From: Paramacrobiotus metropolitanus
Lineage: Eukaryota > Tardigrada > Eutardigrada > Parachela > Macrobiotidae
DNA length: 64,000 bases
Assembly (NCBI RefSeq): GCF_019649055.1
Contig: NW_026570343.1
Span: 328,427-392,426 of the forward strand
Reading direction: 5' to 3'
The position numbers and the translations under genes were made by a program. Within the stretch, counting starts at the first letter, position 1, and every line of letters starts with the position of its first letter. The notes beneath the pieces were generated by a model that was given only the letters and a program-made list of their open reading frames with translations, had not been told where the DNA came from and made no database searches. This document shows positions 25,344 through 49,393 of this stretch, in pieces.

Positions 25344-25918
25344 TGTCGTGTATAAGCGTTCACGCCGGTTAAGGCTCCATGAACAATCTTTACTCTTCCA
25401 CGCCTGTAATGCTCAATCGGTAGGCACTCGTACTCTCAAACTGTAACAGAAGAACTAAGGTGGAAATAGACGAACGATTCAGGAACACGAGAAGATCAGG
25501 AATCCCTCAGGAACGAGCTAACCACAACTTCCGGTCGTAAGTCCTGTGAGGATCGGTAAGAGCTAGGACGATTGTGTCACGAGCAAACCTGTATTCTATG
25601 CAATAATCCGGGAGCGATCATGTACATCAGAAGGAACAAGTATTGCTGTCTCTTTATCCAATTCACATCACAGTTCACAACGCTAGGAAATCGTAATTAG
25701 AAGCAGTCTCAGAAGTAAATCTCAGACTACTGATCCCGATATTAGGCATCACCAGAACTTATATAGACTTTGCGTTATGACATCATATACATCGCTAGTA
25801 AAAGAGAACAGCAAATCACAGCATTGATTGACTAGATTATCCGTTATGTTGCAGGTGGAAGGCGGACAGTCATCATCCAGTACGTACACCCGGCGTATGA
25901 TCCTACTCCCATACGTCA
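25344..25918 (-). repeat. 3' LTR (575 bp)
   Basis: It matches 48816-49389 except for one extra G (cgctaggaaa versus cgctagaaa) and one substitution (caataatcc versus caataagcc). On the minus strand it starts TGACGTATGGG and ends ...ACGACA. A TATA box (ctatataag on the minus strand) lies at 25758-25766. Confidence 0.95.
25758..25766 (-). promoter_or_regulatory. TATA box in the 3' LTR
   Basis: ctatataag on the minus strand; the same sequence is at 49229-49237 in the 5' LTR, where it would drive the genomic transcript. Confidence 0.65.
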
Positions 25919-25930
25919 CCCCCACGAACG
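25919..25930 (-). promoter_or_regulatory. Polypurine-tract-like end next to 3' LTR
   Basis: On the minus strand cgttcgtgggggtgacg crosses the boundary, with the LTR beginning at TGACG. The purine run GTGGGGG is short for a plus-strand primer but is in the right place. The 14-mer tcacccccacgaac that spans this junction on the plus strand is repeated inside the Pol ORF (see findings). Confidence 0.55.
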
Positions 25931-26576
25931 ATGCTTGGCCGTGCCAAAATAAACAATCCATCCCGCAACATCCCAGTGCGATTGTGCACTTCCATCCATC
26001 CTGATCCCGATCCACCGCACAATCCACGCGTCCATCCGATGCCCAATGTGACTGTACGCCGCGATTCCAGAGAGTTAGTGTGTGGAATCCTTGGCGAAGA
26101 GGCATCCGGAAGTCCACGGGTTTGGCAGGGCGGAGGTCCAAGGATCCAGGAAGGCAAACTATGAATTACTGACATGGTGCCGCTTGAGTTTGGATGGTGT
26201 TTTATGTACAGTTTACGGCACAAAGCTTTATTAACTGTGAAACTAAAATCTTAAAATGTGATTATGTGTAATTCTGTAGAACTATGCATTAAACGAACGA
26301 GACCGCGATAACCAACAACCAGTAGTATTCTTACGAATTCTCGAGTACTACATCATCCAGTAACAACGGTCAACAACAACAAACAAGCAAAAATATCTGC
26401 ATAAAAATCATGAGGACAAATTACTGGTAGATGAGAGCAAATTTAAACCAGCAAAAGAATATCAGTAGCAATAAGATCAACACGGCTTTGGTAAAGCAAA
26501 GTCATTAGACAACACAAGGCCAGTAAAAAGGCGAGATCAAAGAAAGCAAAAGATCAAGGACAAAGGTGAGTCAAGG
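25931..26576. other. Element 3' untranslated region
   Basis: There is no convincing coding here. It contains CA-rich phrases such as caacggtcaacaacaacaaac and separates the RGG ORF from the 3' LTR. Confidence 0.5.
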
Positions 26577-27380
26577 TTACTTGCCAGCACTGGGAGCCAA
26601 TGAAAACAAACCAGTAATGCCAGAGCCAGACGCTGCAGCGGCATCCAAACGGCGAGAAACTTCCGCAGCCATGTGACGTCGACGATCAGCATCCAATTCC
26701 CGCTGCTGCTGTTGGGCCAAATAGCCAGGCACAAAATTATGTTCAGCAGAACCAACAGGACCGGAAGGCGCAGACGGCGCACGTGGGCGATCAGCCGGAG
26801 AACGGTCGCGGGCATCGCGGACAATCGGCACTTCAGGAAGTGGCAACACATTCGGAGGCAAACCGGGAAAGTCAGCATTCTGCGGGGCTTGCTGCTGCAC
26901 AGGCGGAATGACAGCCAGAGGGACAACAACAGCATTCAAGGCTGGTGGGCCATGTAGATTGACAGCAGGGTTGACACCATTGGGCTCACCTGCAGCCACA
27001 TTTCCGTTGCCTTGGATCGGATTCGGTGCATTCGCTGCTTGGTTGCCCAGGTCGTCAACCTCCATGTTTGCGGCGGCAGCTTCCACTGGAGCAACTGGGT
27101 GAGCGTCTCCATCAAGTACTTCAATAACTTCCGGTGCGCCCAGAGGTCGGCCATTACGACGCCAATGATCGTTTCCACGACGCAAGTTATTGTCTCCAAA
27201 ATTCCGATGATTTCCTCGGCCGTACGGACGAAAGTTGCCACGGTAAGCACCACGGGCTCCACCCCTTCCTCGGTGATTATAACCGGCATTATACTGTTGC
27301 TGCTGGCTGGAGGATGAATGAAAAATAGCGTCAACCAGCTTATCAAAAGCTCGGTTAGGATCAATAGGCGGCATGCCCAA
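26577..27380 (-). CDS. Cargo ORF: RGG/Q-rich putative RNA-binding protein (267 aa)
   Basis: It begins MGMPPIDPNRAFDKLVDAIF, a possible short helix. An RGG/RG-rich tract follows at about residues 35-80 (HRGRGGARGAYRGNF, YGRGN, RRGNDHWRR). The centre is Pro/Asn/Ala-rich and low in complexity. The C-terminal part has a charged helix (QQQRELDADRRRHMAAEVSR). RGG tracts bind RNA, and a similar Arg/Gly/Asn tract occurs near the Gag-Pol junction of the same element, so a nucleocapsid-like or RNA-packaging role is plausible inference. No catalytic motif is seen. It is the ORF closest to the 3' LTR and could use a spliced or internal transcript. Confidence 0.7.
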   Translation of the reverse strand: MGMPPIDPNRAFDKLVDAIFHSSSSQQQQYNAGYNHRGRGGARGAYRGNFRPYGRGNHRNFGDNNLRRGNDHWRRNGRPLGAPEVIEVLDGDAHPVAPVEAAAANMEVDDLGNQAANAPNPIQGNGNVAAGEPNGVNPAVNLHGPPALNAVVVPLAVIPPVQQQAPQNADFPGLPPNVLPLPEVPIVRDARDRSPADRPRAPSAPSGPVGSAEHNFVPGYLAQQQQRELDADRRRHMAAEVSRRLDAAAASGSGITGLFSLAPSAGK

Positions 27381-27908
27381 CTAATGAAAACTAGTGACCT
27401 TTTACGCTAAAAGTAAAGAGAAAAAGGCGTTAAAATCACAGTCTACACACAGCGAAAATCAAGCATGCCAGAAGGCCGAAACGAAAAATCCACAATGCCG
27501 ATTTCTGCACACTACGCGCAAGCGATTTTATACCTGTCTGCTGGAACGAAATTTAAAAGTGTGGCAGATTCCATACAGGTAAGAAAAACAACCAATCAGC
27601 GCTTCGCGCCATATCCTTTTAATGCAACGTAATCGAAGATCAGATCTATCCAGGTACAATGAGAGATTTAACACTGATAGCCACAGCAAAGCGGCAAAAA
27701 TATTAAACGACCAGTTCAATGACTCAATCCAGCGCGTAAAATTAGAAAGATAAAAGTTTGATACAGTAAAGCACAATATTCCTGTGACACTCTATAATAC
27801 AGAATGTAGTAGAGACACAACGGTGACGATCATTGAGACAATATCGAAGCAATCAAACCAAAAGTATCTGGAAATTAGGACGAAGAAGCACAGCCAGGAA
27901 CGATCGTG

Positions 27909-28823
27909 TTACAGTTCATCCGAATGCGGCTGTTGCTGAGCATAAACCGTCGGTTCCGCAATTTCAGGTGAATCCTCGCGAGCGACTGCAGCAACAGGTG
28001 GCACAGCTGGAACAACCGGCTGCATAAAAGGCAGCGGATCAACATCCATTTTGTCCAGATCGGATCCATCGTCGTTCTCACAATCAACTTCCATATCAAC
28101 ATTCTCGTCAGCTTCGACATCAGCATTCTGTTCCGGGGATAACACAGCCGAGGGATCCTCACGATCTTCCCCATCATCCGAGACAGATACTTCGCTTGGC
28201 GCCGAAGACGAGGACGGTGAAACCTCCTTGTACTTGCGCTTTTCCCCACGAGTGCGAAAATTATATGGCCCAGCAGAAGTGGATGGCTGCGGTTCATCAT
28301 CATTGGCAACTCCGCCAGCAACACCTTGACGCACAACTGCATCCTTTTCCTGTCGTTTCTCCAATTCTTCAAACAAACGGACAAAGACCGGATTGAGATA
28401 CATGTACTGGCCACGCAATTCAAGTGCAATAGGAGTAGGCAGTGACCGTGTAATGGTACACAAATCAAATCGATTAATTAAAACTCCGTTGATGAACAAA
28501 AAGCGTGATAAATATAAACGCGGATAATAGCGGTGAAATCTGTTTAATCCGGTAAAATAGGCTTCAGTAACGACGAGCTCACCACGTTTATCCGCGACGA
28601 CCATTCTTGGAAATACTCCGGAATGCGCTCGTTTACGAGCCGTCTGCTTGGTTTTGAAGACCGGCCGCGGTGCATCCGGGTTATAAGGCACATAAAGAAT
28701 TCCGCCTTTGCGCAGATGTTCCTCGTCTAAACACAGTTGAAACGACAATGAGCGCAAGCAAAACTTAACCATGATCAACTGCAAAACTGGCAGAAGAAGC
28801 AACGAAACAAAATAAAGCAACAT
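27909..28823 (-). CDS. Cargo ORF of unknown function with acidic tail (304 aa)
   Basis: The frame starts with a hydrophobic stretch (MLLYFVSLLLLPVLQLIM) that could be a signal or membrane anchor, but an internal Met at residue 18 may be the real start. Residues of about 35-160 look like a folded domain, with the motif ILYVPYNPD, an Arg/Lys-rich patch and several aromatic residues (FHRYYPRLYLSRFLF). From about 170 on the chain is Ser/Glu/Asp-rich and disordered. The phrase YNPD also occurs in the ORF at 36206-37054, followed by a similar spacing of basic and aromatic residues; a shared origin is possible but weakly supported. No known family is recognised. Confidence 0.65.
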   Translation of the reverse strand: MLLYFVSLLLLPVLQLIMVKFCLRSLSFQLCLDEEHLRKGGILYVPYNPDAPRPVFKTKQTARKRAHSGVFPRMVVADKRGELVVTEAYFTGLNRFHRYYPRLYLSRFLFINGVLINRFDLCTITRSLPTPIALELRGQYMYLNPVFVRLFEELEKRQEKDAVVRQGVAGGVANDDEPQPSTSAGPYNFRTRGEKRKYKEVSPSSSSAPSEVSVSDDGEDREDPSAVLSPEQNADVEADENVDMEVDCENDDGSDLDKMDVDPLPFMQPVVPAVPPVAAVAREDSPEIAEPTVYAQQQPHSDEL

Positions 28824-28924
28824 GACAACGATTGTCGTATCTCATGAGGGTAGTAACGCGGAACGTCTACACTAGAAGCGAAAAATACTACAGGTAAATT
28901 TCAGACTTGTGAAAAACCACAACA

Positions 28925-29452
28925 TTACAATAAAACCACGACAAACACGGCAATACCTCGCTTTGCTTTTACAGATGGAGTCTCGGAAGACGATGGCTCT
29001 TCTTCTGTCAAGTCTGGAGTTCCCAGCTGTCTCTCCGCCTGCGTCTGCGGTTTCTTCGGTGATGGCTGACGGATCTCAACGTCAGGGCTAGCAGGGAATA
29101 ATCCTCTTCGAGCCTGGCGGCGAACCACAGCAGCATTGCGTCGCAAAATTGTTCGTCGCCGCTGTGCATCATATCGGCGCTGCAAAGCATGAACTATCGC
29201 ATCTGCCCAACTCGTTGGAGGTTGCTGAGCCTCTGCTGCACTCACCGATCCCGATGACCCAGAAGATTGCGCAGAAAACACTGGTTGGGCGGCGGTACGG
29301 CGAGAGACTCGAGATCGAGTGACACGCGATGAAGAACGGGCTTCATCGCTGTCCGGAGAATAACCAAAACTTAATCCCGCTGTTGCTCGACTCGGGCGCG
29401 GTGTACGCGAAGCAGTCTTCCGCGCAGTCGCTTTCGTTGCGGGAGGCGACAT
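28925..29452 (-). CDS. Cargo ORF: basic, Ser/Arg-rich protein (~175 aa)
   Basis: I chose the ATG at 29452 (MSPPATKATARKTA) over an upstream frame extension because the small cargo ORF at 34367 starts in the same style (MTPPASERKK). The N-terminus is Ser/Thr/Arg-rich and basic, like a nucleic-acid-binding or nuclear-targeting tail. A helix follows at about 90-130 (WADAIVHALQRRYDAQRRRT...RRQARRG), then an acidic segment and a hydrophobic last ten residues. No family is recognised. Confidence 0.6.
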   Translation of the reverse strand: MSPPATKATARKTASRTPRPSRATAGLSFGYSPDSDEARSSSRVTRSRVSRRTAAQPVFSAQSSGSSGSVSAAEAQQPPTSWADAIVHALQRRYDAQRRRTILRRNAAVVRRQARRGLFPASPDVEIRQPSPKKPQTQAERQLGTPDLTEEEPSSSETPSVKAKRGIAVFVVVLL

Positions 29453-30063
29453 TCTCAAAACATAAAAGTGACAAATCAATCGTAAAACGAAGGGAAAAGG
29501 AGAATAACGGAAATGGCAGCAGGTTCAGAAAATTGAGAAACTGAAGTGCAGAGAAAAGCACAACAGAGAATCTACACTGGCACCGACGCCGAGAACTCAA
29601 AATTCACCGAGTATACCACCAGGCGGTTGACAGGCGACAGACTGAATTTTACGAATTTTTATTCCCACTTTTCCCATTTGCCATAGCTCACACAGAATAC
29701 CACTTGTTTCGTTGAGGATTTGCAAATTGCAACCACAAAAACCAAATTTTAACACAAAAAACGAATCATAATGATAAAAAGAACTCGAAGAGGGAAAGTC
29801 AAAACCAAAACACGCGGCTGGGAAATATTCAGAACACAGACCAGAAACTGTGCAGTTTCTGATAGCATTGCCATATCAGGGCGGCTGACAAGTGACAAAA
29901 TGCCGCATCGCAAGCACAGAAAATATCAGCTGTTCATCCATAAAAAGCGAGGAACCCAACAATATCTATCCTTTTACGGTGACGGATTTTCTGTTTCATT
30001 TTATTACTAGCTTGTTTCTCTTCGCCGAATTTTATTTTAATCAGTTCTAATCATCCGATCATC
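29453..30063. other. Divergent intergenic region inside the element
   Basis: This 0.6-kb gap separates a leftward cargo ORF (start 29452) from the rightward spliced gene (start 30064), so it could contain a promoter for the latter. It is AT-rich. No TATA box at a fitting distance is obvious. Confidence 0.45.
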
Positions 30064-31435
30064 ATGTCCGCGCAGCCTGTAGGACCAACTGAAGAGCCTC
30101 TCCCTTCGCCGGAGGCAGACGCGATTGCCCACTATGAATACTGGAAGGGACGAACTCGTGAATCAGTGCAGTTTGCCATGGCGGAGCCTCTACAGCCAAA
30201 CGAAACCATCCGAGACCGTCGACAATTGGCGATGCATACGGCAGCCCACGCGTGCATTCTTGAGGCTGACATTACAGGATACTATGTGGACATGTCATCT
30301 ATCAAGAAATTCGTTGTGGAAATGCACGATGATTTTACAGAAGAACGAGTGGATTTCTTCCTTGGCGACGCTATCAACGCTGGTATCTTGCTCAAGAAGA
30401 TGAGCCGCGACGGGCGCTTTGTCCTAGAAGTCGCCGAAGAAGTCAAGAATAACCGCGATCCAGAGACGAAGGTAATCGACACAACTAGCAAGTTTCGTCG
30501 GATGATTCGCGTAATCCTCTACCACGGTCGATACGCCATGTCACGCACCGAAATCCAACACTGGATCTGTACGTTCGACGTACAGTTGCAGGACGTGGAC
30601 TACTGGCTGGAGCGCGGGCTGCGCCAACTGGTTAACCAGAAACATGTCGTCGTCGTCTACGGGAATCTTTTCGTGGATAGCTGCATCGACCTGTGGCTAC
30701 GAAGCATTCGCGGCTGCTGTCTCTGCACCACTCTAGCCCAAACTATCAGTAAGTGTTTGTGTTTTTCAAAACGGCATTTTCGATATTACGTTTTAAAATA
30801 GCCTTAACAACGCTGTATACTGCAGATCATCTTGCCTTGCGGAATTTAATAAAATGATTTATTGTGCAGATATCAAAATGGGCACTATGAAGGTGACAAT
30901 CAACGGAAGAGACACAGAGCAACACTTTGCCGATTGTAGCTTCGGTTACGTGGGACAGGACGGGGATTTGGTTGTCGATGGCGTCATGGAGCGGCTGGAC
31001 GCAATCGAGCCCGAGAAGAACAACACCACGAACGTAAATCTGATAATCCGGGCTAACAAAGACGGGCGTATTGAGCGAGAACCAATTATCACGCTCACTC
31101 AGCTGAAAGCTATGGGCGGCCGTCCGAAATATGTTCCCCGATCGAAAAGTACGGATACCGAGAAGAAAGGCCAGAAGACCAAGGAGAAGGCCGAAAAGCC
31201 TGACAATGAAGTAAGCACTGCAAAGCCGGATGCTATGAAAAAGCCCGACGCAATCGACAAATTATTAGAACAAGTCGAACGCGAAAAGGATATTATGGAT
31301 AACTGCAAGGCGCTGGTAAACACGCTGAAGGCTCGAGCGACGATGGATGCTAAACATATCGCGTATATCCGTGAGGCTCTAGAACAGCGTCTTGCCAACT
31401 TGAAAACTGCAAAGGAGAATTTGGATCTGGATTAA
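30064..31435 (+). CDS. Opposite-strand cargo gene with a spliceosomal intron (~416 aa)
   Basis: Two exons: 30064-30748 and 30870-31435. The donor (atca|gtaagtg) and acceptor (ttattgtgcag|at) are strong, and the phases match (1 nt + 2 nt). Exon 1 encodes about 228 residues with a probable folded, helix-rich region (residues about 60-215) carrying paired segments such as VDFFLGDAINAGILLKKM and VDYWLERGLRQLVNQKHVV. Both look like an acidic aromatic helix followed by a short hairpin, reminiscent of tandem winged helices, but I cannot name a family. Exon 2 has a beta-rich start (MKVTINGRDTEQHF), a Lys/Glu/Pro-rich linker and a C-terminal coiled coil. The gene runs against gag-pol. Alternative: two separate ORFs, since exon 2 is also open from an ATG at 30854. 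Confidence 0.72.
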
Positions 31436-31823
31436 ACAGCAGTTTAAGGATATCTGATAATTTTGTTCTGAAATTCGGCCGATTTTGTTTCTTCCGTTTA
31501 ACGTTTTGATCTCGTTGAATTAATCTCATCAGTGTTTTAGCAGGCAACTGTCATAATTCCGTACAAATTCTCATATAGTCGTTAATCTTGCTGGTCGGAC
31601 AGATCTTAATTCGAGTTTTAATTTAGATTTTATGCAGCATTTGAATAACCGCAATAAAGTCAGTGTAACAGAATACGCAATCATAACAACAGTGAATTCC
31701 AGTACAGAGTGAGAAATTAACAGCTTAAAATCAATTATCACACCTGGAACCGTGAATCAAATGCTAAAAACAATTTTAATATTCCATCTTGGGAATAAAG
31801 TTACAGAAACCACCATGGAAAAG
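31436..31823. other. Gap between opposite-strand gene and tRNA-like array
   Basis: AT-rich, presumably holding the 3' UTR of the plus-strand gene. I found no A/B-box pair here. Confidence 0.45.
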
Positions 31824-31937
31824 TAAAAAGAATAGAAAAGAACTTTTAAAACTTGCAAAATGTGTATTCACGCAGGATTGAACCTTGCATCTAGGTGGAC
31901 AACTAAATCCTGCTCTTGCCCATACGCTAGCATGGCT
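31824..31937 (-). ncRNA. tRNA-like unit 1
   Basis: B box ggttcaatcc at 31884-31875 (minus) is perfect. The A-box-like tagcgtatggg starts at 31929. The distance is 46 nt. The T-run is at 31829-31824. Confidence 0.6.
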
Positions 31938-32119
31938 ATACCCCATTTTACTTTTAATTTGGCAATCACTGGAGGCGCTGTACTACGAAAATTCACAATA
32001 TAGTGAAAATTCACCGCTGCAGCAGCTGATAAATTTAAGATTTCACCACCATCATGATCGCAGAATTCATGCCGACAATGGAAATATTTCCACAAGAGTG
32101 ACAGTAAAAATATAAAGAC

Positions 32120-32234
32120 AAAAAAAGTAGGATGTTAGAAAATGCAGTTTTAATTTCAAGGGGTTTCGAACCCGCAACCTTCATTGCACCTGTTGTTGTG
32201 GTTCAACAGTTCAGTGCACTACGCCACTACAATC
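32120..32234 (-). ncRNA. tRNA-like unit 2
   Basis: A box tggcgtagtgc starts at 32226. The B box gggttcgaaaccc is at 32173-32161, inside a self-complementary T-arm-like stretch. A T7 run ends the unit near 32120. The A-B distance of 55 nt fits a class II (long variable arm) tRNA. Confidence 0.68.
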
Positions 32235-32334
32235 TACGAAGTTAAATTTAAAATTCGCTCGTCGGGGATGACCATAAAATTACCAATCTCGAAGCCAACA
32301 TAATACTGCATATAAATTTAAAAATATAAAACCG

Positions 32335-32444
32335 AAAAAGAAGGTTTTTAAATTAAAGGGATTAACTTTTAGGGATTCGAACTCTAGACTTGCAAGAAGC
32401 GGGTCGGTATGGATTCTCAGTCAAGCCACTACGCCACAAGGTGC
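32335..32444 (-). ncRNA. tRNA-like unit 3
   Basis: A box tggcgtagtgg starts at 32436 and matches the consensus exactly. The B-box-like agttcgaatcc is near 32383-32373. The A-B distance is 54 nt. An acceptor-like gcacctt precedes the A box, but the pairing strand after the B box is missing, so it is not a normal tRNA. Confidence 0.7.
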
Positions 32445-32581
32445 TCTACGCTAAAGCCGAATTAGAATTAACACCGGAAGCGCCATGTCGTGTATATTTA
32501 ATCGTGTATATTTAATCAGACTGCACGAGGGATTAAACCTTGACACTTCTTCCCACAAAAGGTACAAAAATATAGGGCAGG

Positions 32582-32693
32582 AAAAATGTAGTTTTCAACA
32601 TGCAGCATGCAACCCTGAGATTAAGACTAGCCGTTCAGGAGGTAGAACATGAGGCGAATGGCCATCATTCAAAGCCACTGAACTACAAAGTCA
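32582..32693 (-). ncRNA. tRNA-like unit 4 (degenerate B box)
   Basis: A box tagttcagtgg starts at 32685. The expected B box is only gggttgcatgc near 32614-32606. The T5 run is at 32586-32582. A further B-box-like ggtttaatcc at about 32538-32529 belongs to no clear unit. Confidence 0.5.
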
Positions 32694-32840
32694 CACGAAT
32701 ACAGACGAAGAGATGGCCAAGTGCAATGTTAACCATTGAGTGTATATACAATTTTACACCCAGCTCTCTGAGTTTAATTCCGATATTCTGGGAGCTATTT
32801 GTCAATACTTTTCCCACGACGATAACAAAAATATGAGACG

Positions 32841-32953
32841 AAAAAAGTAAGGTTATGAAAATTGCAAATTAGCTGTAAGGGACTTGAACCCGCAACCGTT
32901 TCATTTCCCCCTTGCTGCAGTTCAACGGTGCAAAGCACTATACTACGCTGTTC
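32841..32953 (-). ncRNA. tRNA-like unit 5
   Basis: A-box-like tagtatagtgc starts at 32945. The B box ggttcaagtcc at 32890-32880 is perfect. The distance is 56 nt. The T6 run is at 32846-32841. Confidence 0.68.
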
Positions 32954-33052
32954 TACGACAGTTATTTTTGAATTCGCTCACCGGAGAGGAACACAAAATT
33001 ACAGCGGTCAACCGTAATACGTATCTGATGGTACTGTGACATTATAAAACGC

Positions 33053-33169
33053 AAAAAAAAAAGAAGGTTTTAGAAAATGTGCATTACTTGCAAGGGTTTC
33101 GAACCCAAGGCCCTAAATTGACCGAGTCGTAGCGGAGACAAGGCGGACAACCACTACACTACGAAGACT
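33053..33169 (-). ncRNA. tRNA-like unit 6
   Basis: A box tagtgtagtgg starts at 33161. The B box gggttcgaaaccc is at 33106-33094. A T10 run ends the unit at about 33062-33053. The distance is 57 nt. Confidence 0.68.
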
Positions 33170-33297
33170 CACAGCAAAACACGAAAATCCGCACGGGAAA
33201 GGCTGTACAACTATGTGCCGCTCGCTGAAAACTGATAAGGAATTAGCGGTATCACAACGAATGTGTAAGTACAACCAAACGCAAAAGTTTAGACACG

Positions 33298-33417
33298 AAA
33301 AAGAAGGTTTTAAGAAAATGCTTTTAAATTTTTGCGGATTTGAACCCAGGGCCAGCAGTAGGTAAACGGATTCGCCTGGTATTGTCCTCACAGCTTAACC
33401 GGTCGACTACTAGAGTC
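33298..33417 (-). ncRNA. tRNA-like unit 7 (Leu/Ser-type A box)
   Basis: The A region tagtcgaccggttaagc starts at 33409 and resembles the tggccgagnggttaaggc box of class II tRNAs. The B box gggttcaaatccg at 33347-33335 is perfect. The distance is 64 nt. The T5 run is at 33302-33298. Confidence 0.7.
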
Positions 33418-33550
33418 ATCGGCAGAAATAGTGTGAATAACACTGCTTACAGTGTCAGTACTCGTATTGACGCCTCTCAACGGTGGTCCAGCCAATATTC
33501 CTCATATTAAATCCCATGAATAAGAATATAACGATCCATGAAATAAAAAC

Positions 33551-33649
33551 AAAAAATGAGGATATTTAGAAAATCGCGTTTTTATATAGACTGGAACCTC
33601 CGACCTCCAATGACGAAGCAACGGAAGCCTCTACTATACTAGCGGGGTC
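33551..33649 (-). ncRNA. tRNA-like unit 8
   Basis: A-box-like tagtatagtag starts at 33641. B-box-like ggttccagtc is at 33598-33589. The distance is 44 nt. The T6 run is at 33556-33551. This is the most upstream unit on the sense strand. Confidence 0.55.
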
Positions 33650-34184
33650 GCTCTACGCAAAATGTTTGAAAATATCGGCGCCAAAAACGTACACCTAGTC
33701 AATGGTAGGTGTGCTAGAAGCCTACCCACCCAAGCAACCAACTGCGTGAAAACCAATACAATGTCCCAACGGAAGTGGAGTCTCATGCGGTTATGCGTTA
33801 CATTGTCCAAAAATTACCGACAACAGCAGCGACAGCGGCTACTTAAACTTTATTAAATTCGCAACTCTCCTAATAAATGACTAAGAGGACCCGCAACAGG
33901 ATACAACGGAACATCCATAATGTGCAGACCGTACGCAACTAACCAAACAGGAAACTAAACGATAAAATGCTCGGACTAGCCCAACGAAGATAAAGAGTGG
34001 AAAACTAAAAGATCCACAATATGAGATCAGCCGCGAGTAAGTACAATCATAAGGGTAAAAGAGTAGAAGCGCGTAAAATCCATACGCTTAAAGTAACGCG
34101 CCACACACACTCCATTCACAACAGAAGGTACTCTGGGTCACCGTGCGAAATCCACCTCCGAAAAGTCCATCCAAGGATAACACA
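33650..34184. other. Spacer between array and small basic ORF
   Basis: I see no A/B-box pair and no convincing ORF. Confidence 0.45.
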
Positions 34185-34367
34185 TCACGGGGTCTTTGGA
34201 GGAAGCTTAGAGACAGCCTCCTTGACGGCAATTCTGCCACGCTCGAAACGTTGTTGGGCTTCCGTGCGTTCAGCCATCTTTTGCGCCACGATCTCCGTCC
34301 ATGCCGAAACACGGTTCTCCAGCGCCTGCTTGGCCGCTTTCTTCCTCTCGCTTGCCGGAGGAGTCAT
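34185..34367 (-). CDS. Small cargo ORF: charged helical protein (60 aa)
   Basis: ATG at 34367; MTPPASERKKAAKQALENRV, then a continuous charged helix (AERTEAQQRFERGRIAVKEAVSK), ending PPKTP. The frame upstream holds another in-frame Met, but the MTPPAS start mirrors MSPPAT at 29452. It is probably a small coiled-coil or nucleic-acid-binding peptide. Coding status is moderate because it is short. Confidence 0.45.
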   Translation of the reverse strand: MTPPASERKKAAKQALENRVSAWTEIVAQKMAERTEAQQRFERGRIAVKEAVSKLPPKTP

Positions 34368-34883
34368 GATAAAGCGAACGATTGGGAGCAAGTCACGAAT
34401 TCCGCAAATAAAACTTAAAACAGCAGAGTTAACAGGATTAGATCACGGTAATAGTAAATAATTAAATTTAAGTAAAAACTCATACTGAGATACATTCAGG
34501 ATAGGAGTTTGACAGCCGCCCCCGCTGGCGACCGCATACTTAAGCAGCACTTTAAACGTTATCAGCCACTTCACTAGAGTGTGTATATTAAACGAATATA
34601 CGCTCGACAATTTACCGCTTTAACACACCTCGTAAGGAGAGCCAAAATCAACATCATTTAAACACTCAAAACGGCAGCTAGAAAATTATACATACGCAAT
34701 CAACCGCGCCACGCTGAGACATCATTGAAAACGCACAAAAAGAGCAGAAAACAGCAAGAGATTTAAACAAAAGGCCCATATGGTTCAAATCATCGAGCTG
34801 TAATTTAAACACACAACGGCCGATCAACCAAAGTCCTCACTTCCAGTAGGTGTGGGGAATGCCACGGAGAACATGGCGCTGCA
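34368..34883. other. Spacer inside element
   Basis: No coding seen; AT-rich. Confidence 0.45.
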
Positions 34884-35795
34884 CTACGATGTGCTTGCGC
34901 TTCTTCTTGGGTTTCTGGTCAGGCCGAAATCTTCATCCACCCACAGCATATCCGCAGGCAAGAATTCCGTCGGATCCTTAAAATCCAGCTTGTTCTCTGC
35001 CCACCAGTCATCCACGTCTAAGTCTGGCTCCTTCCAGTCCTCGAGATTGCCAGATCCCCAGATATTTGGAACAGGCTCATCATCATCCGGTGTACAGAAT
35101 ACGACCACATGAGCCTGGGCCATTATTCTCGCAGTCGACACAACAGCTCTCTCTTCCATCACTCGCTTGTTGTGTTCTAGCATGCGCTGATGACGCTCAC
35201 GCAAAGTTTCCGGCGGGTTAAATAGGGATGGCAAGCCAAATTCCTTCCGCAGGCGTTCAGATGCTTCACGTCGGACTGGAGTGTCGGGATACAGAATAAA
35301 CCCGATCTTCAAGTAATACATCTGCGACTCCGACTGGCGGATGTTCTCAATCTCCAAAGCCACCTGAGCCTCGAAATCCAATGGCTCGGGTTCTACAAAA
35401 TTCAAAGCCATGATTTCGGAATTAGAAAGCTTGCAAAGCTCCGAAATAGAAATATACGGTCCAACCAAGGAACGCCAAAAGTACACAAACTCCGCAATGT
35501 GTTCCTGGTTCGCAGAAACATACGCAACAGATTCAGAGAACTTGACAAACTTACGGCGTTTCTTATCATCCTGTTCCGCGCAAATCATACGCCCGCGCTC
35601 TGATTTATAAAATTCCATCTCCATAGTATGAAAGAGCAGAGATTTAAACCAGAAGAAATGACGACAAAGTCTGTAAAATTTAAAAGCTGCAGCTAAAAAT
35701 GTAAAAGGCAAGAGTGAACAGGAAAACCGCTGACACACCGCAGCTGTGCAGACCGGAAGCAGCTGCGCACTATGTGACTGCCACTGCCCTAACAT
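34884..35795 (-). CDS. Cargo ORF of unknown function (up to 303 aa, probably shorter)
   Basis: The open frame is 303 residues, but the first 55 or so are unusually hydrophobic and Cys/Phe-rich. The likely start is the internal MEMEFYKSERG (about residue 58). From there the protein is helical: ESVAYVSANQEHIAEFVYFWRSLVG, then IRQSESQMYYLKIGFILYPDTP, an Arg-rich helix (RREASERLRKEFG), and a Trp/Asp-rich acidic tail (DWKEPDLDVDDWW). No family is recognised. If the long form is real, the hydrophobic N-terminus would be a signal or anchor. I favour the short form. Confidence 0.62.
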   Translation of the reverse strand: MLGQWQSHSAQLLPVCTAAVCQRFSCSLLPFTFLAAAFKFYRLCRHFFWFKSLLFHTMEMEFYKSERGRMICAEQDDKKRRKFVKFSESVAYVSANQEHIAEFVYFWRSLVGPYISISELCKLSNSEIMALNFVEPEPLDFEAQVALEIENIRQSESQMYYLKIGFILYPDTPVRREASERLRKEFGLPSLFNPPETLRERHQRMLEHNKRVMEERAVVSTARIMAQAHVVVFCTPDDDEPVPNIWGSGNLEDWKEPDLDVDDWWAENKLDFKDPTEFLPADMLWVDEDFGLTRNPRRSASTS

Positions 35796-36205
35796 TTAAC
35801 GACACACGGGCGGTTGCTACAGTGACAAAATTGTTTACATGTTCAAACGTGAAGACTTGCATTTTAAACTGTCATTTTGTATGTTAAATCGTTTTTCGAC
35901 GGATTATCTGCCAAATTCTGATTTGAATAACCGAGAACAGTTTAACTGATTTATTGCTGAACAGCCAAATCTGCGCTCCAGAGAATGAATGGTAAGCCAC
36001 TTCATAGAATAACTGCACGTTGCACAGGCTGTAAAAATAACGTTAAAAAGCTAATTGTAAACGGAAAACAGATTCTGTTACAGGATTCTATAAACTTAGA
36101 ATAACATGCCCAACACTGAAGGTAATGTTCTTCCGTAAAACGAAAAATACAGAGGCTAAGTAAGAGAGCACTACAACAGGGCTGTGATTGCAGGGGAAAT
36201 CCTCA
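35796..36205. other. Spacer inside element
   Basis: Nothing recognised. Confidence 0.45.
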
Positions 36206-37054
36206 TTACACCGCAGCGCCCATATCATCGTCATCATCGCGACGTGGGCGATGGCGTTTGGCGATCGAAGCATCCAGTTTACCAGGACCGCGCTTCTCCT
36301 GTCCTTCATGCAACAGCCAACGAGTCTGTAGCAATTGCTGCTGATGTTGAGCTGCCGACCGCGGATCCGCTGCATTCAAACGCTCGAAATAGCGCTGCTC
36401 CGCTTCCAAGCGGTGATCCTCATCAATATTGGAAACCAATTCCTCTATATGTTGATTATACGCGTCCACGAGCGTAACGACGGCACCATGGTCTCCCGTT
36501 TCCCCCGGGACATAATCCAATGCAGTGAGAAACTCGACAGGATTGCGCACCACATTGATGCCGTAATTACGACGGAGTTCGCAAACAATTTGCCCGATGA
36601 GCCATCCTTGTCGGAAATCCACACGCAGGTAACGTAACAACGCATAGTGTGCATCCTTTGACAGATCTAGAGTGTGGACAAAACGGTTATATTTATCGAC
36701 CGTCATTTCCGATCCATTATGGTAGATCTTGCCGCGAAAACGCAATCGAGTTTCTGGATGCAACTCCACATAATCTCTGTCCGGATTGTAGGGACGATTG
36801 ATGATCAAACCAGACGGGGGAGTATAACTCTTTCCTCCACGAGCATAGTCGTACGGAGACGGACGAAGGCCACAATCCACCATGAGATGGGACCACTCAA
36901 ACGTTGGTTCAGGCCATCCAACATGAGGATCGGGATACATTGGCGGCTGAACATCGGCCAAAACATCTGCCAAAACCTGCACCGAATCTTCCGAGGAACT
37001 CGTAGTATCCTCATGCTGAAAGGAAGGATGCGACGGTACTTTGGGGCGATGCAT
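36206..37054 (-). CDS. Cargo ORF with C-terminal NLS-like cluster (282 aa)
   Basis: It starts MHRPKVPSHPSFQ with a Ser/Glu-rich acidic leader. The central part (residues about 70-200) looks folded, with IINRPYNPDRDYVELHPET, RFRGKIYHNGSEMTVDKYNRF and a Leu-rich helix (ALLRYLRVDFRQGWLIGQIV). After a Glu/Gln-rich helical segment the protein ends in KRHRPRRDDDDDMG, a basic cluster followed by an Asp run that could act as a nuclear localisation signal. It shares the YNPD phrase and a similar basic/aromatic layout with the ORF at 27909-28823. No known family is recognised. Confidence 0.68.
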   Translation of the reverse strand: MHRPKVPSHPSFQHEDTTSSSEDSVQVLADVLADVQPPMYPDPHVGWPEPTFEWSHLMVDCGLRPSPYDYARGGKSYTPPSGLIINRPYNPDRDYVELHPETRLRFRGKIYHNGSEMTVDKYNRFVHTLDLSKDAHYALLRYLRVDFRQGWLIGQIVCELRRNYGINVVRNPVEFLTALDYVPGETGDHGAVVTLVDAYNQHIEELVSNIDEDHRLEAEQRYFERLNAADPRSAAQHQQQLLQTRWLLHEGQEKRGPGKLDASIAKRHRPRRDDDDDMGAAV

Positions 37055-37395
37055 TGCAACAACGTACAGTGATTTCAGTTACAACTTGGGCGTATAAAAG
37101 GAGGAAATTCGGACGATGCTGAACGCGAATTGACAACTAATATTAATCTTGCAGGTAGGAATATCATTTGCGGCCAGCTATCAGCGGTTTTCCGCTGTCG
37201 ATATGCCGAAAGAGCAACGAACGCTACTACGTCATCGCGGACTGTCCAGTGGCGAATGCGGCTACTCAATCCGTACGTACATACAGATTTAATGGGCATT
37301 TTCCAGACAATTTTAATGCGTTAAGGAATAAAATTTCAACTCTTTAGAATTTAAAAATAAAAGAAATATACATATTTACACGGCCGATCAGCTTT
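37055..37395. other. Spacer inside element
   Basis: Nothing recognised. Confidence 0.45.
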
Positions 37396-37872
37396 TTAAT
37401 CATTACTGCATAGTGTACACACGCTGTTAAATTTTTGTAAATCCCGCTTCATTTCCGGCCAATAAAATCGCAGATTCTTGTACAAATATTCATACGGTGA
37501 AATGGCGCTATTATATTTATGTACTAGACGACGATGTACCGATTCCGTTAAAATTTTACGCCACTGATAGGGAATTAGAATTTTAGGAATTCTTTTGGCG
37601 ATGTCTTCCTTCTCACCATAATGGCAAATAATGCCTTTAATTTTCAGCACTAAAGGAAGATGCCAGGCCGCGTATGCAGATTCTTCCAGAGTGCAGTCTC
37701 CATCGACAACGGCGTCCCACAACATCATGTCACTACACTCCATTTGTCGATACTTCCAGAATTCCTGTTTATCAAGGGCGTCATCGGATATTACGCCTTG
37801 TGGCCAGAACTGCTCAATTGGACGCCCAAGCGGGACTGGGAGAGTTCTGTCTTCTACAATGGGCAAGGCCAA
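37396..37872 (-). CDS. Cargo ORF: stand-alone integrase-type H2C2 zinc module (158 aa)
   Basis: The C-terminal half reads ILIPYQWRKILTESVHRRLV, then H, Y..Y.N..FYWPEM and VCTLC. That is the His-His-Cys-Cys zinc-binding module found before the catalytic core of Gypsy integrases (H-x3-4-H ... FYWP ... C-x2-C). The N-terminal half (FWKYRQMECSDMMLWDAVVD...) matches the part of the Pol ORF that precedes its extra H2C2 copy (FWRETQQQCVDSRMWYKM). No integrase core follows. So the gene is a duplicated N-terminal integrase region kept as a separate protein. A DNA- or protein-docking role in integration is inference. Confidence 0.78.
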   Translation of the reverse strand: MALPIVEDRTLPVPLGRPIEQFWPQGVISDDALDKQEFWKYRQMECSDMMLWDAVVDGDCTLEESAYAAWHLPLVLKIKGIICHYGEKEDIAKRIPKILIPYQWRKILTESVHRRLVHKYNSAISPYEYLYKNLRFYWPEMKRDLQKFNSVCTLCSND

Positions 37873-38028
37873 GTTTTTGCTGGCTGTGACGGTCCAATCT
37901 CCATTGCGTTACAGGTAATTGATAGAGTATCACTGGCCACCGGCGCAACTGGTTCAGATAATCTCTCCCGGCTGGGATACATTCAGAATAGCCGGTTCTC
38001 TATTATTTGTGACCATACGCTTTTAGCA

Positions 38029-41000
38029 TCAGCCGACGGGTCTCTTTACGCTTTTGTCGTTGTTCTGATTAATAAATCTCTCCACAGGTTTCACCACACG
38101 CCCGGAGCGGGTTTTAAGCAATGGAACCGCTTCCATCTGGTTATCCAGATATTCAGCGTACTCAGCATCAAGGCGTGACGATGCTGAGTCAGCAGATGGA
38201 ATCACCGGCGGCGGCGCGGGCGCCTCAACTAATTCATCGGGGCATTCCTTTTCCACACAATCGAGCAACTTCGGTAAGTGCTCGTCTTGTAGTATAGTAT
38301 CAACGTCGCGGAAATTATACGGCTTTAAACGGCTGACATGTACCGTGTCAGTTTTGACATTTCCGCGCCGGTTACTTTTTACTACATAGTGCACGGGTCC
38401 TGACTGACGCACAATTTCCCATCCAGCGGTCCAACGGGGCATAAGGGATGGATTTTTCCCGACTTTCCGATGAAGTACGTATACCAAAACTTGATCTCCC
38501 GGTTTATACGATACATGTGAAATATTTGCATCATATCTAATTTTATCTTTTAGCTTATGGCGAAACTCTTCTGCATTCACCAAGTCCAGGGCCTCACCAA
38601 GGCCGCGCTGCATCTGCTGTACATATACGTGAGCGGGAATCACGAAATCCTCTTCAAATGGCAGGAAGTTATTTATCGGTAAGCGCATCTCGGTGCCGTG
38701 CATCATGAAGAATGGTGAGCGGCCCGTTCGCTCCACAACTTTACTGTTAAATGCAGCACAAAGTGCTGGGAGGAATATATCCCAGTCACTTTGCTGCTCA
38801 TTCACATACTTCGCTAGCGCCTTCTTGATTTCCCCTACGCGTTTTTCAACCAGACCGTTACCCTGCTGGTGGCCTGATGCCGTCGGGGCGTGAGCAACAC
38901 CAGCGAGAGCGAGAAGCTCTCGAAACATCTCAGACATGAAATTACTGCCGCGATCTGAGGTAATATGCACAGGCATACCGAAGACTGTGAGAATGCGGCG
39001 ATAAAAGAACAATGCCAATGTGGCGGCATCATTTCTCTCGACTGCCTCAGCCACAATATATTTGCTCCCGTAATCAACAGCGATTATTATGTTTTTATTT
39101 CCAGATTCCGTCGTTGGGAGGGCTGGAGCAACGTCGATTGCCCAAACTAACCGAGGAGGAACCGTGGGATTGGACTGAAGAGCGCCGGCTGGTGCCGTAG
39201 CAAGAGGATTTTGTGCAAGGCACGCCGGACACGAGGCACAGTAACTTTTAACAGACTCAAACATACGAGGCCAATAAAAATACTTGTACATCCTTTTATA
39301 GGTGGCCAGGACGCCCAAGTGTGCTGCTAACGGGGAATCATGGTTATCCTGAAGGAACTGAAGCCGCCAGTGAACAGGTGCATACATGCAGTAATAGATC
39401 TTCCGGTTTAATTCGAACTTGTAGTATACGACGCCCTGTTTCACTACAAATTTGTTTAAATGTAATTTCTCGTGGTCTGACATCTTTTCCTTTTTATTCT
39501 CCAGGAGTAACCGCCATCGGACGATGCGCGCATCGCGAGACTGCTCTTCAGCCCAGTATGAGGCCTTGTCATCCGTAATCAACTTTTGGACTTTATCTGC
39601 GTCAAATGCCTTCATGTCTGCCTCGGACACTGCCTTCACTTCCGCCGACATCATTTCAAAGCGAATGTCCACATAATCTCGCTCCAGAACCGCGAAGCAA
39701 CATTCAATCATCGCCATATCACCGGCGAAAGGGTAAGTTTGCCGATAATCAAATTCAATGTCCGAGTCGTCGGAATCAGGTTCTGGCTGTTCACCTGGAT
39801 TTCTGCTTAAGGCATCAGCAATAACGTTCTCTTTTCCAGGGATATGTACCGGTTTGGTGTTAAATTGCTGGATGTACAAAGCCCAGCGGCCGAGACGACC
39901 AGCAGCATCACGCATATTGTTGAGAAAGACCAAAGCTTGATGGTCCGTCTGCACTTCAAACTGATAGTCCGAAAGGTAATGTTTCCATTTCTTCAAAGCA
40001 CAAATGACAGCGTAAGCTTCGAGTTCTGTAGGGAAATAAAGTCTCTTCTGCGTTTCTGTCAACTTGCGGCTTAGATATGCAATAGGACGCCAGTTTGTTG
40101 GCACGTCCGTCGGTTTATCCTTGGGACATTGCATGAGAACTGCACCCACAGCAATAGTACTGGCATCGACAATAACTCGCGACAGAGCCTCCGGGTCATA
40201 ACGGGCCAAGACCGGCGCCGTCACCAAGGCCTCCTTCAATTGTTCCACAGACCTACACTGATCCGTTCCCCATTCAAAGGTAACTTTTTTAGGAATCAAC
40301 TTTTGAAGCGGCTCCGCAATCTCTTGAAAATTCTTAATAAATTGGCGATAATATCCCACCATACCTAGGAACCGTAATGTATCTTTTTTGTCTTTTATAG
40401 GGCCAAATTCCTTAACCGCCTGTATCTTCTCTGGATCAGTACTGATACCGAACTGGTCAACCGTGTGACCCAGGAACGTTATTGAATTTACAAATAATTC
40501 TGTCTTTTCAGGATTAATGGTCCAGCCGCATTCCTGGAGCCGCAAAAAGAGCTCCTGTAAGTCTCGCATATGATCAGCCAGGTTTTTACTGAAGACAATA
40601 ATGTCATCAATAAAAACTAATACGTTCCTCCACTTCATGTTCGCAAGCGTCAAATCCATGGCGCGCTGGAAAGCCGAAGGCGCGTCCTTCATCCCGAAAG
40701 GTAAGACTTTGTATTGGAACGTGAACTCTTCACCCACCATCGTTGTTTTACACCGGTCTTCCGGTTTTATTTTTATTTGCCAAAAGCCACTCTTTAAATC
40801 GATTTTACTGAAAACCGTAGCTTTATCGAGGGCATTTAATATATCGTCAACTCTGGGAAGCGGGTAACTGCTGCCCATTAATCTTTCGTTAAGCTTACGG
40901 AAATCCACGGTTAAACGCCGGGATTTATCCTTCTTCTTCACTATACAGATGGGACTGCCCCATGCCGAATTTGTTGGCTCAATTATACCGTCTTTAATCA

Positions 41001-44000
41001 TTTCCTGTGTTTTAGCCTGGAGCCATTTGCGGTCTTCAAACGATGTGCGATACGGAGGAGTTCTGACCGGCAAACTCGTGCCTGTATCCACAGAGTGCTC
41101 ATATATGGTACAACAACCCACAGGACGCGCCTTAGTCGGTAAAACTGATTTCGCTTGATAAAAGATTGCTTTTAATTCATCCTTGCTGGGACAGATATCA
41201 CCAACTTTGATTTTAGCGAACGTTTCTTCGGTTTCAGGATCAACGACACTAACGGCGGGTGGCGGCAACTGCATCGCCACACATTCAGTAATTTTCTCCA
41301 GGACCGGAACACCTCCCTCCTTACTGAGAATACCACCAATTGCCTCTTGACAGTTCTCCAGGAACTCCGGAGAGTCCATTTGATAAACTGCGTCCACGAG
41401 CGCGACTTCGCCAAGGTTGGTTTCTTCATTCAAAACGAGCGGTTTGTCAGAAACGTTAACGACGCAGACTCTACAATTACCATACTCATTTAATGTTAAA
41501 ACGCCGTCCAATAATACCGCATTCTTATTCGAGTCTGGAATTTTTCCTTCGTAGAGAAACGGCTGGGTGTATAGATACTCATCCTGAAATTCCATAAACT
41601 GTTCGTCAGACATCGACGTCGTTGCACGAATAATTCCCTGTGAATGGGGCTGAATTATAACCGGCGAGGCTGGGAAGAGCTCCATTTTAAAGCAGTCAAT
41701 AGGACCGGGTTCTGGCTCAAAGCGGTAAATATCATGTTCTACCGAATTAAGCTCAACCTGTGCTTGTGCCTGTTTCAGATGGGCGTCCCTGTACGCCAGC
41801 TCGATGACATCCTTCGAATACACGCATGCCGGGATATCAGTGGACTCACGAACGTCCTGAGATCGTTTGGGCAAATTTTTAGCCGCCGGTTGTTGTGGTA
41901 CCGGTGCTGGCTCCACCGTCTCAGCTGACATTTGGCTCGCCGCCTCTCTTTCTGCATATTCCCGCCGAATTCTGCGGCTGTAACTGGACTTTTTGCGCCG
42001 CGGAGGACTCCTTGGACCTTCCGTTGGCAGTTCGCAGTTTCCCACGGTAGGTTGTACTGCACTAGACGCCACAGTCTCCCTCAATACTTTTTGCTCATGA
42101 ATTTCGTTCCAAATCTTCCACTGTTCATTGATATCAACATCTACTGGGGAGTCGTAAGAGGCCCTGACTGCCGAAGGAAGAAACTCCGAAACTTGCTCAC
42201 TAATCAACTTATGGTTTTGCGGTGAGTTAGACACGATTTGAGAGTTTATTTCTCTTTGCTTCTCCGCCTGTTTATCTTCGTAGGAGACTGGACACGGGCC
42301 GATGTTAATGGGTTTCATACCATCTGCAGGGACAAAGCTACCGTTTTCGAATTCTCCTGCTGGTGCCGGGTTATCCACGGAAAAGGTAACCTTACGTTTT
42401 CCTGTAGCTTTCTGTGCATTTAATTGCTCTGTGCGTTTCAAGGTTTCAAAATGTCGGCGATCATTAATCGAGTTTCGACACACGTCGCAGTTCTTCTCGT
42501 ACCGTTCAATTTCTATTATACAGTCCGGCCAGTAAAATAATTTCACCAAGTACGGATATAGCTTTTCATGCCGGCCATACGCTTGCTTATGAATTAAAAT
42601 TTCGTGGAAGCAGGCAATTAATTTCTGTCGCCACTGATACGGCACGTAAATTCTCGGACATGCACCAGAATGATCAGATACCCTGCACAATATCCCCTCA
42701 CAAATCACAAACCTGTTGATTTCGTATTTGGTAAAATTCGTATTAGCGTGCGACGGTTTCTTGTACATTTTGTACCACATCCGGCTATCAACACATTGCT
42801 GTTGAGTTTCGCGCCAGAACTGCGGATCACGGAATCTTTTCTCTGAAGGGAATAAGCCCTTATCCTGCGGCCTATCCATCGGCGTCATCCATTTCTTCAA
42901 CTCTGGATTGCGTGCCATGTAAGAGGGACAATCATGGACTTCATCAACGTCTCTGCGATCTCGTTCGACAGGTATGATATTTAATAATTTATTGTCTATG
43001 CTAAAGCATTCAACCGATTTAGAAGATTTCCGCAGAACACCCATGTATAGGTATTGAGCTGCAGGATGCTGCTGAAGTACTGCGTCAATCGAAGAAATTT
43101 GGATCGGAAGCTGCAAGGGATCTTCACCCCCACGAACTTGACTGGATCCAGAAGGAGGCACAGGGCTGACTGATGCCGAAGACGAGTTACTTGAACTACT
43201 CGAGCTGCTTGCCGGTGGCGGCGGGGAAATTCTTTCACGTTTAAACTGCGGCTGAGAAGACGCCTGTTCGCACCCCCACGAACTTGACTGCATACTATTT
43301 ACAATTGTTTCACCGCCTCCCCCACGAACTTGACTTTGTTCTGGGTTTTTCTCCACCTTAATTTCCTTTTTAATTGTAGGTTTAACCGGTTCATCGGCAA
43401 CGGAAGCTGCCATGGGCAAATATTGCCGGATCATTTCCTGTACCACGCTCCGTACAAACTCCTCATCACGTTGATCAGATCCAACTTTAACCAGTGCAGC
43501 CTTCACAGGCACAACTTCTTTAACTTCGGTTTTTACTGGGACGTCGACAACATTTGTTTTAATAGATTGTGTCGACTGAGTCAAGCGAGGCCACGACTGC
43601 TTCGCCTTCTGCAAGTGTAAGATACAAATTTCCGGATCAGCTTTTGCCAAAATTAGATGGGCCGATTCGTAGGGAACGAATTTTGCCTCTTTAGCAACAC
43701 CGATTCGCTCGGTCAGCATCAACGCTGGGATCGCGGGCGACGGCTTAACTCCCGGGGGAATTAATGGATCAAAATCGTGAGCACGAATAACGTCAGACAT
43801 CAGGTGAGTTTCACGGCGTAAAAATGCCGGAGCATTAGACGGTCTGCGCGACAGGCGCCATGTCATCGTATTCATGTCTAAAATAAAAGGCTTCATAGCT
43901 AAAAAGTCTAAACCTAAAACAACGTGGTCTCTATCAAAGGTAGAACTGACTAGTATAGCGTGCTCAAACGCCATGCCAAATTCGTGAATCGTGACCACTA

Positions 44001-48797: not shown

Positions 48798-48815
48798 AGA
48801 CACCGGTGGGCGCCA
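48798..48815 (-). promoter_or_regulatory. Primer binding site (tRNA-Lys type)
   Basis: Directly after the 5' LTR the minus strand reads tggcgcccaccgg. TGGCGCCC is complementary to the 3' end of eukaryotic tRNA-Lys (...GGGCGCCA). The match falls off after 8-9 bases. There is no gap between LTR and PBS. Confidence 0.82.
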
Positions 48816-49389: not shown

Positions 49390-49393
49390 CTTG
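49390..49393. repeat. Target-site duplication CTTG, right copy
   Basis: Matches 25340-25343. Confidence 0.9.

Follow-up and report, generated by a model that had tools for sequence, protein, structure and literature searches.

Eight candidate type 2 RNA polymerase III genes clustered inside a Ty3/gypsy-order LTR retrotransposon of the tardigrade Paramacrobiotus metropolitanus

The virus-associated (VA) RNAs of adenovirus and the EBERs of Epstein-Barr virus (EBV) are strongly structured, number one or two per genome and act by occupying host proteins. Murine gammaherpesvirus 68 (MHV68) encodes tRNA-microRNA-encoded RNAs (TMERs) of 200-250 nt, with a predicted tRNA-like element and two precursor microRNA (pre-miRNA) hairpins (PMC4838037), and bovine leukemia virus (BLV) has a microRNA (miRNA) cluster produced from a type 2 RNA polymerase III (Pol III) promoter (PMC4992882). 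Helenus, Ajax and Cassandra (TRIMp3) are short non-autonomous long terminal repeat (LTR) elements with a tRNA- or 5S-derived Pol III promoter in the LTR (PMC10886601). Here we analyse a stretch of 64,000 nt from the tardigrade Paramacrobiotus metropolitanus (assembly GCF_019649055.1, contig NW_026570343.1, positions 328,427 to 392,426; the window, whose own numbering is used below), in which a 24-kb LTR retrotransposon with Ty3/gypsy gene order holds an array of eight tRNA-like units, U1 to U8. Comparison of its sequence with that of its relatives indicates that the array is probably a cluster of eight, and in relatives up to nine, type 2 Pol III noncoding-RNA genes owned by the retrotransposon.

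The eight minus-strand units run from 33656 to 31825 in the gag-pol sense, and each has an A box, a B box and a T-run (Table 1), which confirms an earlier interpretation made from the letters alone (the sequence-only reading). Some of its details had to be corrected: the A-to-B spacing, given as 44-64 nt, measures 41, 63, 56, 55, 71, 53, 54 and 45 nt between box starts from U1 to U8, and instead of five near-perfect copies of GGTTCRANNCC and one degenerate copy there are four exact B boxes (U2, U3, U4 and U7), two with one mismatch (U6 and U8) and two degenerate ones (U1 and U5). The A box of U2 is damaged in the window copy and in three of the 14 alignment rows displayed. Trained on the units, a two-box scan recognised six of them on the element's sense strand and gave no hit on its antisense strand, with three hits in total in 20 single-base shuffles; U2 fell below the threshold because of its damaged A box, and U5 was below it as well. 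All hits in the window element were internal, and 14 further loci gave five to nine hits on the better-scoring strand and none on the opposite one. The strict B-box pattern GKTTCRANNCC was found ten times in the window against 2.0 expected, a count that none of 100 shuffles reached, although two of the ten are palindromic sites counted again on the opposite strand and four lie outside the array. A combined tail-plus-B-box pattern was too strict and gave no matches.

The array is present in other copies of the element, as the sequence-only reading required of its proposal. Searches were confined to the P. metropolitanus assembly (170 Mb, 533 contigs), where the array as DNA query returned 50 matching stretches, the window's own included, and a distant array as a second query added further loci. 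We read 56 array loci (the window and 55 others) with 384 units in all; 54 of them have at least five recognised units, and the arrays of L062 and L083, with fewer, are truncated by the ends of their contigs. The unit order U1 U2 U3 (X) U4 U5 U6 U7 U8 is conserved across loci, with single units missing or unrecognised at many of them; X is an extra relative of U6 found in ten distant loci, and up to nine units are recognised per locus. Many array copies are 80-95% identical. Using as an age yardstick the protein comparison of the element's open reading frames (ORFs) at 24 loci, we found identities of 72-82% for the 60-aa ORF in L079-L082 and L084-L092 (88-98% at the other loci), of 46-72% for the antisense ORFs in L079-L093 (except one 25-aa piece at 84%) and, for matching stretches of the 303-aa ORF, of 65-72% over short ends in L002, L006 and L078 and only 33-42% in L079-L083. 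The units remain recognisable in the lineages where neighbouring ORFs have diverged this strongly. Within the window family the closest pair by BLAST, U4/U7, is about 71-75% identical; the units are old, diverged paralogues, and the internal tandem duplication favoured by the sequence-only reading does not hold as a recent event.

Across the 384 units the signals are arranged as in a type 2 Pol III gene, with the A box upstream of the B box at a tRNA-like spacing, near-constant within most unit types, and a T-run after the B box with few before it. TTTT occurs 18-50 nt past the B box in 381 units, against 34% of random windows and 312 units expected from shuffled tails, and TTTTT in 361, against 15% and 201, respectively. 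Between the boxes TTTT is depleted (21 units, against 86 expected from shuffles and 62% of random windows), in a scan that set some A boxes too far from B (at 101 nt in U8 of the window family, about 85-94 nt in U5, and 62 or 103 nt in some U1) and so enlarged the stretch counted as internal. Four Ts are kept in nearly every unit of all nine types, five in only 13 of the 27 type-U5 units. As for the boxes themselves, GGTTCRANNCC is exact in 148 units, GTTCNANNC is present in 331 and the A-box word TRGNNNRGNG in 305.

Rates were determined as parsimony changes per site on a tree of 38 copies, taken from a 41-row alignment minus three fragmentary rows. The sequence-only reading had staked its proposal on boxes being better conserved than spacers, and A boxes (0.74) and B boxes (0.89) do change far less than spacers (2.85). 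Sequence between the boxes, at 1.08, is under almost the same constraint as they are; the 12 nt preceding the A box (1.61) and the tail (1.99) are looser, and the flanks reach 3.69 and 2.99. The unit-to-spacer rate ratio is 0.38, so that spacers evolve about 2.6 times faster, and none of 1770 circular shifts of the site labels reached the observed contrast. U8 and U1 are almost fixed and U2 is the loosest unit. Mean pairwise identity, 0.919 in units, 0.880 in tails and 0.827 in spacers, and inserted bases per site, 0.06 in units against 0.75 in spacers, point the same way, both computed with earlier A-box placements of U2 and U8. Since the units are far better preserved than the DNA between them, they are probably useful to the element.

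At each unit TFIIIC and TFIIIB would recruit Pol III, and the predicted products are unspliced RNAs of about 105-135 nt that end in a U-run and are made independently of the LTR promoter. Selection would act on each RNA, beyond factor binding alone, because the inner sequences differ from one unit type to the next and are constrained almost as strongly as the boxes. If such RNAs exist, the likeliest role, which we put forward tentatively and by analogy, may be that of trans-acting RNAs that bind and occupy host proteins as decoys, or regulate them, for instance those of RNA silencing or small-RNA processing. A function as primer or guide in reverse transcription is less likely because the units, judged by eye and with no dedicated test run, lack a 3' end complementary to the primer-binding site (PBS). 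The broader proposition, that an autonomous LTR lineage has evolved and long maintained its own set of at least eight distinct Pol III noncoding RNAs, separately selected and trans-acting on the host or on its own life cycle, which stand apart from the LTR transcript and do not rely on miRNAs, seems to us evenly balanced between true and false.

The resemblance of the units to tRNA ends at their boxes: a cloverleaf was not detected, and the T stem, with 76.9% and 68.7% of its cells paired, is incomplete. Their identity as tRNA genes is rejected; ARAGORN detected no tRNA in the window and none in 16 array loci. Rfam gave no family at the gathering score in the window and none at E<=2 in four loci; matches to the bacterial small RNAs ASdes (E 0.023, other strand) and RyhB (E 4.7) lie below the gathering scores and were taken as chance. 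A search for the nematode spliced leader SL1 found no match, its controls being silent too, and one for COX1 gave no match. Identity as a pre-miRNA or another stable hairpin was dropped on the fold z-scores of the window copy. A vault-RNA-like closing stem was also discarded as a general feature: it is clear in U2, U6 and X, missing in U1, U3 and d8, and doubtful in U4 and U7 (U5 was outside the test). Two small structures have some support in the alignments. In U6 and X, the stretch that follows the A box pairs with the one that precedes the B box, forming a stem with 95.9% of cells paired and 13 double-change cells against a shuffled mean of 4.6; U2 shows a similar stem, while U1, U3 and d8 do not. 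In U4 and U7, a hairpin has 96.7% of cells paired. Pairing of its loop with the A box would be possible, and at one of these pairs A-U (26) alternates with G-C (21).

Several results weigh against the assignment of the array to Pol III genes with selected RNAs. The U6/X and U4/U7 stems are suggestive only, because they were spotted by eye in the same sequences in which they were scored. For the U6/X stem, 54 and 57 of 500 shuffles attained the observed value on two of five covariation measures, pair count and pair type, and for the U4/U7 structure, whose hairpin changes on one side only, 456 and 485 did so on two of five. No strong fold was detected in the window copy, to which the fold test was applied (z-scores -0.96 to +2.55), and antisense pairing with the element's own RNA was at the level of shuffles (seven complementary 11-mers against 7.2). 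Regarding the boxes, U1, U2 and U5 have one weak box each, a loose B-box search allowing one mismatch found 21 sites in the window against 20.5 expected, which is not significant, and the box matrices were trained on some of the same units that they scored. The units of a locus and the loci of a lineage share descent, so that unit counts are not independent trials. Finally, U3 is dispensable, as it is missing in five copies (L064, L066, L067, L069 and L070), and single units can therefore be lost; the five have similar break points, so that elements without U3 have probably spread.

A motif of 26 nt that lies within the array, just before U6, resembles an LTR end followed by a PBS (Table 1). 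At 0.23 changes per site it is the array's most constrained site class; it hardly varies within the window family and is largely retained at distant loci. Its 23-nt core pattern has 43 matches genome-wide, 42 identical and one differing at a free position, and the reversed pattern has none; two of the 43, on C103 and C502, are outside the array loci read. Judged from the best 100 of 105 matches to the PBS-type motif, 29 of the 41 internal motifs listed are preceded by one on the same strand at a distance of 15-18 kb, which is what whole elements should show; for the other 12 it lies at 12-39 kb in five cases and more than 1 Mb away in one, and in six no PBS-type motif is found upstream on their contig strand among the matches listed. 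On C201, from 77686 to 116215, PBS-type motif and array are 38.5 kb apart, which may represent a nested insertion. The PBS-like part is altered at several distant loci, and the motif is therefore not simply a second PBS; the only suggestion we offer is a site, common to the motif and the LTR end, that a protein or an RNA recognises.

The position of the array raises the question of a chromatin device, in which clustered TFIIIC or Pol III sites form a boundary or roadblock between convergent genes, against read-through, double-stranded RNA or the spread of silencing, and the RNAs are by-products. Convergent ORFs do flank the array, the nearest sense ORF upstream ending at 34185 and the antisense one at 31435, and Pol III genes have been described as barriers, as at fission yeast centromere 1 (PMC2040200). 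Factor binding alone, however, predicts free drift between the boxes, where 1.08 changes per site were measured against 2.85 in spacers, and a boundary predicts neither the depletion of internal TTTT nor unit-specific inner sequences nor a covarying stem; we consider this explanation unlikely. That every unit lies in the sense of the genomic RNA, with the slowest motif of the array resembling LTR end plus PBS, would also suit cis-acting elements of that RNA (for packaging, dimerisation, priming or strand transfer) with no more than a likeness to Pol III boxes. Such a function does not predict tRNA-type A and B boxes that keep a near-constant spacing, T-runs placed at a set distance or the scarcity of internal TTTT. 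The alteration of the PBS-like part at distant loci also speaks against it, and we consider it quite improbable.

Conservation might in principle reflect an overlapping coding sequence or a very recent common origin, as the high identity of many copies would allow. Nevertheless, the spacers of the same copies evolve much faster, no listed ORF of at least 150 aa crosses the array, and distant loci keep both boxes and order, so we assign this account a very small probability. The lowest of all goes to tRNA-derived short interspersed elements (SINEs) that form a cluster, or a host tRNA array taken up by the element, in either case now decaying. The tRNA-like box consensus would fit it, and SINE insertion has been proposed as the origin of such LTRs in terminal-repeat retrotransposons in miniature (TRIMs; PMC10886601). 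Against it, the units are conserved rather than decaying, with no tRNA detected in the window or in 16 array loci, and unit probes run genome-wide fell almost entirely in array loci: 40 of 40 places for U3, 18 of 18 for d6 and 70 of 72 for the U4/U7 loop pattern, or 128 of 130, so that the array is not a cluster of dispersed SINEs. Of the two matches outside the array loci read, C50:459326 lies some 4 kb away from a truncated array and C103:338914 some 0.2 kb away from a core copy of the 26-nt motif; the U3 probe scored 40 of 48 candidates, and its places are thus a lower bound. The preference of the sequence-only reading for Pol III-type units that are part of the LTR retrotransposon, over a pile-up of SINEs, is supported by their presence in copies of the element and by the slow boxes.

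Pol III genes owned by the element, the reading we favour, would be housed in a Ty3/gypsy-type retrotransposon, as judged from the protease-reverse transcriptase-RNase H-integrase order, LTRs with TG..CA ends, a target-site duplication (TSD) and a tRNA PBS. The two LTRs are 99.65% identical and the 4-bp TSD is CAAG; because the LTRs are near-identical and the 2301-aa pol frame is open, the insertion in the window appears to be young. The PBS was compared with 36 host tRNA loci and matches the reverse complement of tRNA locus L034, and PBS-type motifs were recognised by hand-sorting at 59 of 100 listed genome places, one of them a variant (the best 100 of 105 matches). A reverse transcriptase search gave relatives 30-43% identical among the best 120 of 956, which carry little information on clade. 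The array has sense genes on one side and the convergent antisense gene on the other; the latter has no Pfam family above the cut-off, and it has relatives among uncharacterised P. metropolitanus proteins, an antisense ORF being 97% identical to one protein and 76% to another. Additional weak integrase H2C2-like stretches, below the curated cut-off, were observed on the minus strand after pol (37396-37872, E 0.0008) and between protease and reverse transcriptase (42295-42717, E 0.0005). In the host flank there is a direct repeat of about 430 bp, 85% identical, at 9125-9556 and 11449-11871.

Table 1. Coordinates of the array units and of other features of the element, in window numbering (rates in changes per site).
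Feature	Positions	Strand	Details
Unit U1	33551..33656	-	A 33642-33628, B 33601-33589, T-run end 33551; rate 0.53
Unit U2	33298..33421	-	A (damaged) 33411-33399, B 33348-33336; rate 1.91
Unit U3	33053..33175	-	A 33163-33151, B 33107-33095; rate 1.33
Unit U4	32841..32960	-	A 32947-32935, B 32892-32880; rate 0.79; candidate hairpin
Unit U5	32566..32699	-	A 32687-32675, B (degenerate) 32616-32604; rate 1.11
Unit U6	32335..32451	-	A 32438-32426, B 32385-32373; rate 1.12; candidate covarying stem
Unit U7	32120..32241	-	A 32228-32216, B 32174-32162; rate 1.28; candidate hairpin
Unit U8	31825..31943	-	A 31931-31919 (GCTAGCGTATGGG), B 31886-31874; rate 0.26
26-nt motif TATACACGACATGGCGCTTCCGGTGT	32471..32496	-	Resembles LTR end plus PBS (TATACACGACA then TGGCGCCCACCGGTGT); just before U6
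Host element, Ty3/gypsy-order LTR retrotransposon, 24 kb	25344..49390	-	LTR pair, TSD, TG..CA ends, PR-RT-RNase H-H2C2-rve order
5' LTR (TG begins 49389)	48816..49390	-	LTR-pair comparison, TG..CA ends
3' LTR	25344..25919	-	LTR-pair comparison, TG..CA ends
PBS TGGCGCCCACCGG, complement of host tRNA-Lys(CUU)	48803..48815	-	13 consecutive matches
ORF in gag position	46481..48025	-	No Pfam family above cut-off
Second ORF in gag position	44931..46484	-	No Pfam family
pol (protease, RT, RNase H, integrase)	38029..44934	-	Open frame, 2301 aa
Accessory ORF, 282 aa	36206..37054	-	No assigned function
Accessory ORF, 303 aa	34884..35795	-	No assigned function
Small ORF, 60 aa, directly upstream of array	34185..34367	-	72-98% identical at 23 other loci
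Antisense gene converging on array	30064..31435	+	ORFs 30064-30801 and 30854-31435
Three further sense ORFs, array to 3' LTR	26577..29479	-	26577-27380, 27909-28823, 28925-29479; no Pfam family

Retroviruses and herpesviruses manage their hosts with Pol III RNAs, and a coding element that has long conserved a cluster of Pol III RNA genes, if true, would make retrotransposons players in noncoding-RNA conflict; the array offers a clear test of this in an animal with a sequenced genome. No coding LTR retrotransposon with an internal array of Pol III genes was found in the literature surveyed, mostly titles and the openings of abstracts with most subscription papers outside its scope, and within the same scope Pol III promoters among LTR retrotransposons were found only in short non-autonomous forms. 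A curation paper on tardigrade transposable elements makes no mention of Paramacrobiotus or tRNA in its main text, judged by a term search (PMC11071193). The statement of the sequence-only reading that no LTR retrotransposon with a tRNA-like array is known needs qualifying, because BLV, Helenus and Cassandra carry Pol III promoters.

In the parallel which that reading drew with the eight tRNA-miRNA units of MHV68, the TMERs (PMC4838037), both are sets of eight clustered units with tRNA-like elements in one parasite genome, the use of Pol III being predicted in the array. Unlike the TMERs, which belong to a herpesvirus and are 200-250 nt long, the array units have a predicted length of about 105-135 nt; ARAGORN recognised no tRNA in them, and the window copy has no stable fold. 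BLV likewise is an LTR retroelement with an internal cluster of the type 2 Pol III promoter type (PMC4992882); its products form pre-miRNA hairpins, whereas the array units lack a stable hairpin fold in the window copy and their host is a tardigrade retrotransposon of Ty3/gypsy order. With Helenus, an animal element, the window element shares a 4-bp TSD and, by prediction from its boxes, a Pol III promoter within an LTR element (PMC10886601). It differs from Helenus, Ajax and Cassandra in its length of 24 kb, its pol gene and the internal position of its eight units, with no two-box hits in the LTRs. The adenovirus VA RNAs and the EBERs of EBV, short Pol III RNAs of a parasite (mentioned in PMC4838037), provide the functional analogy we propose, although the array units, unlike them, match no Rfam family.

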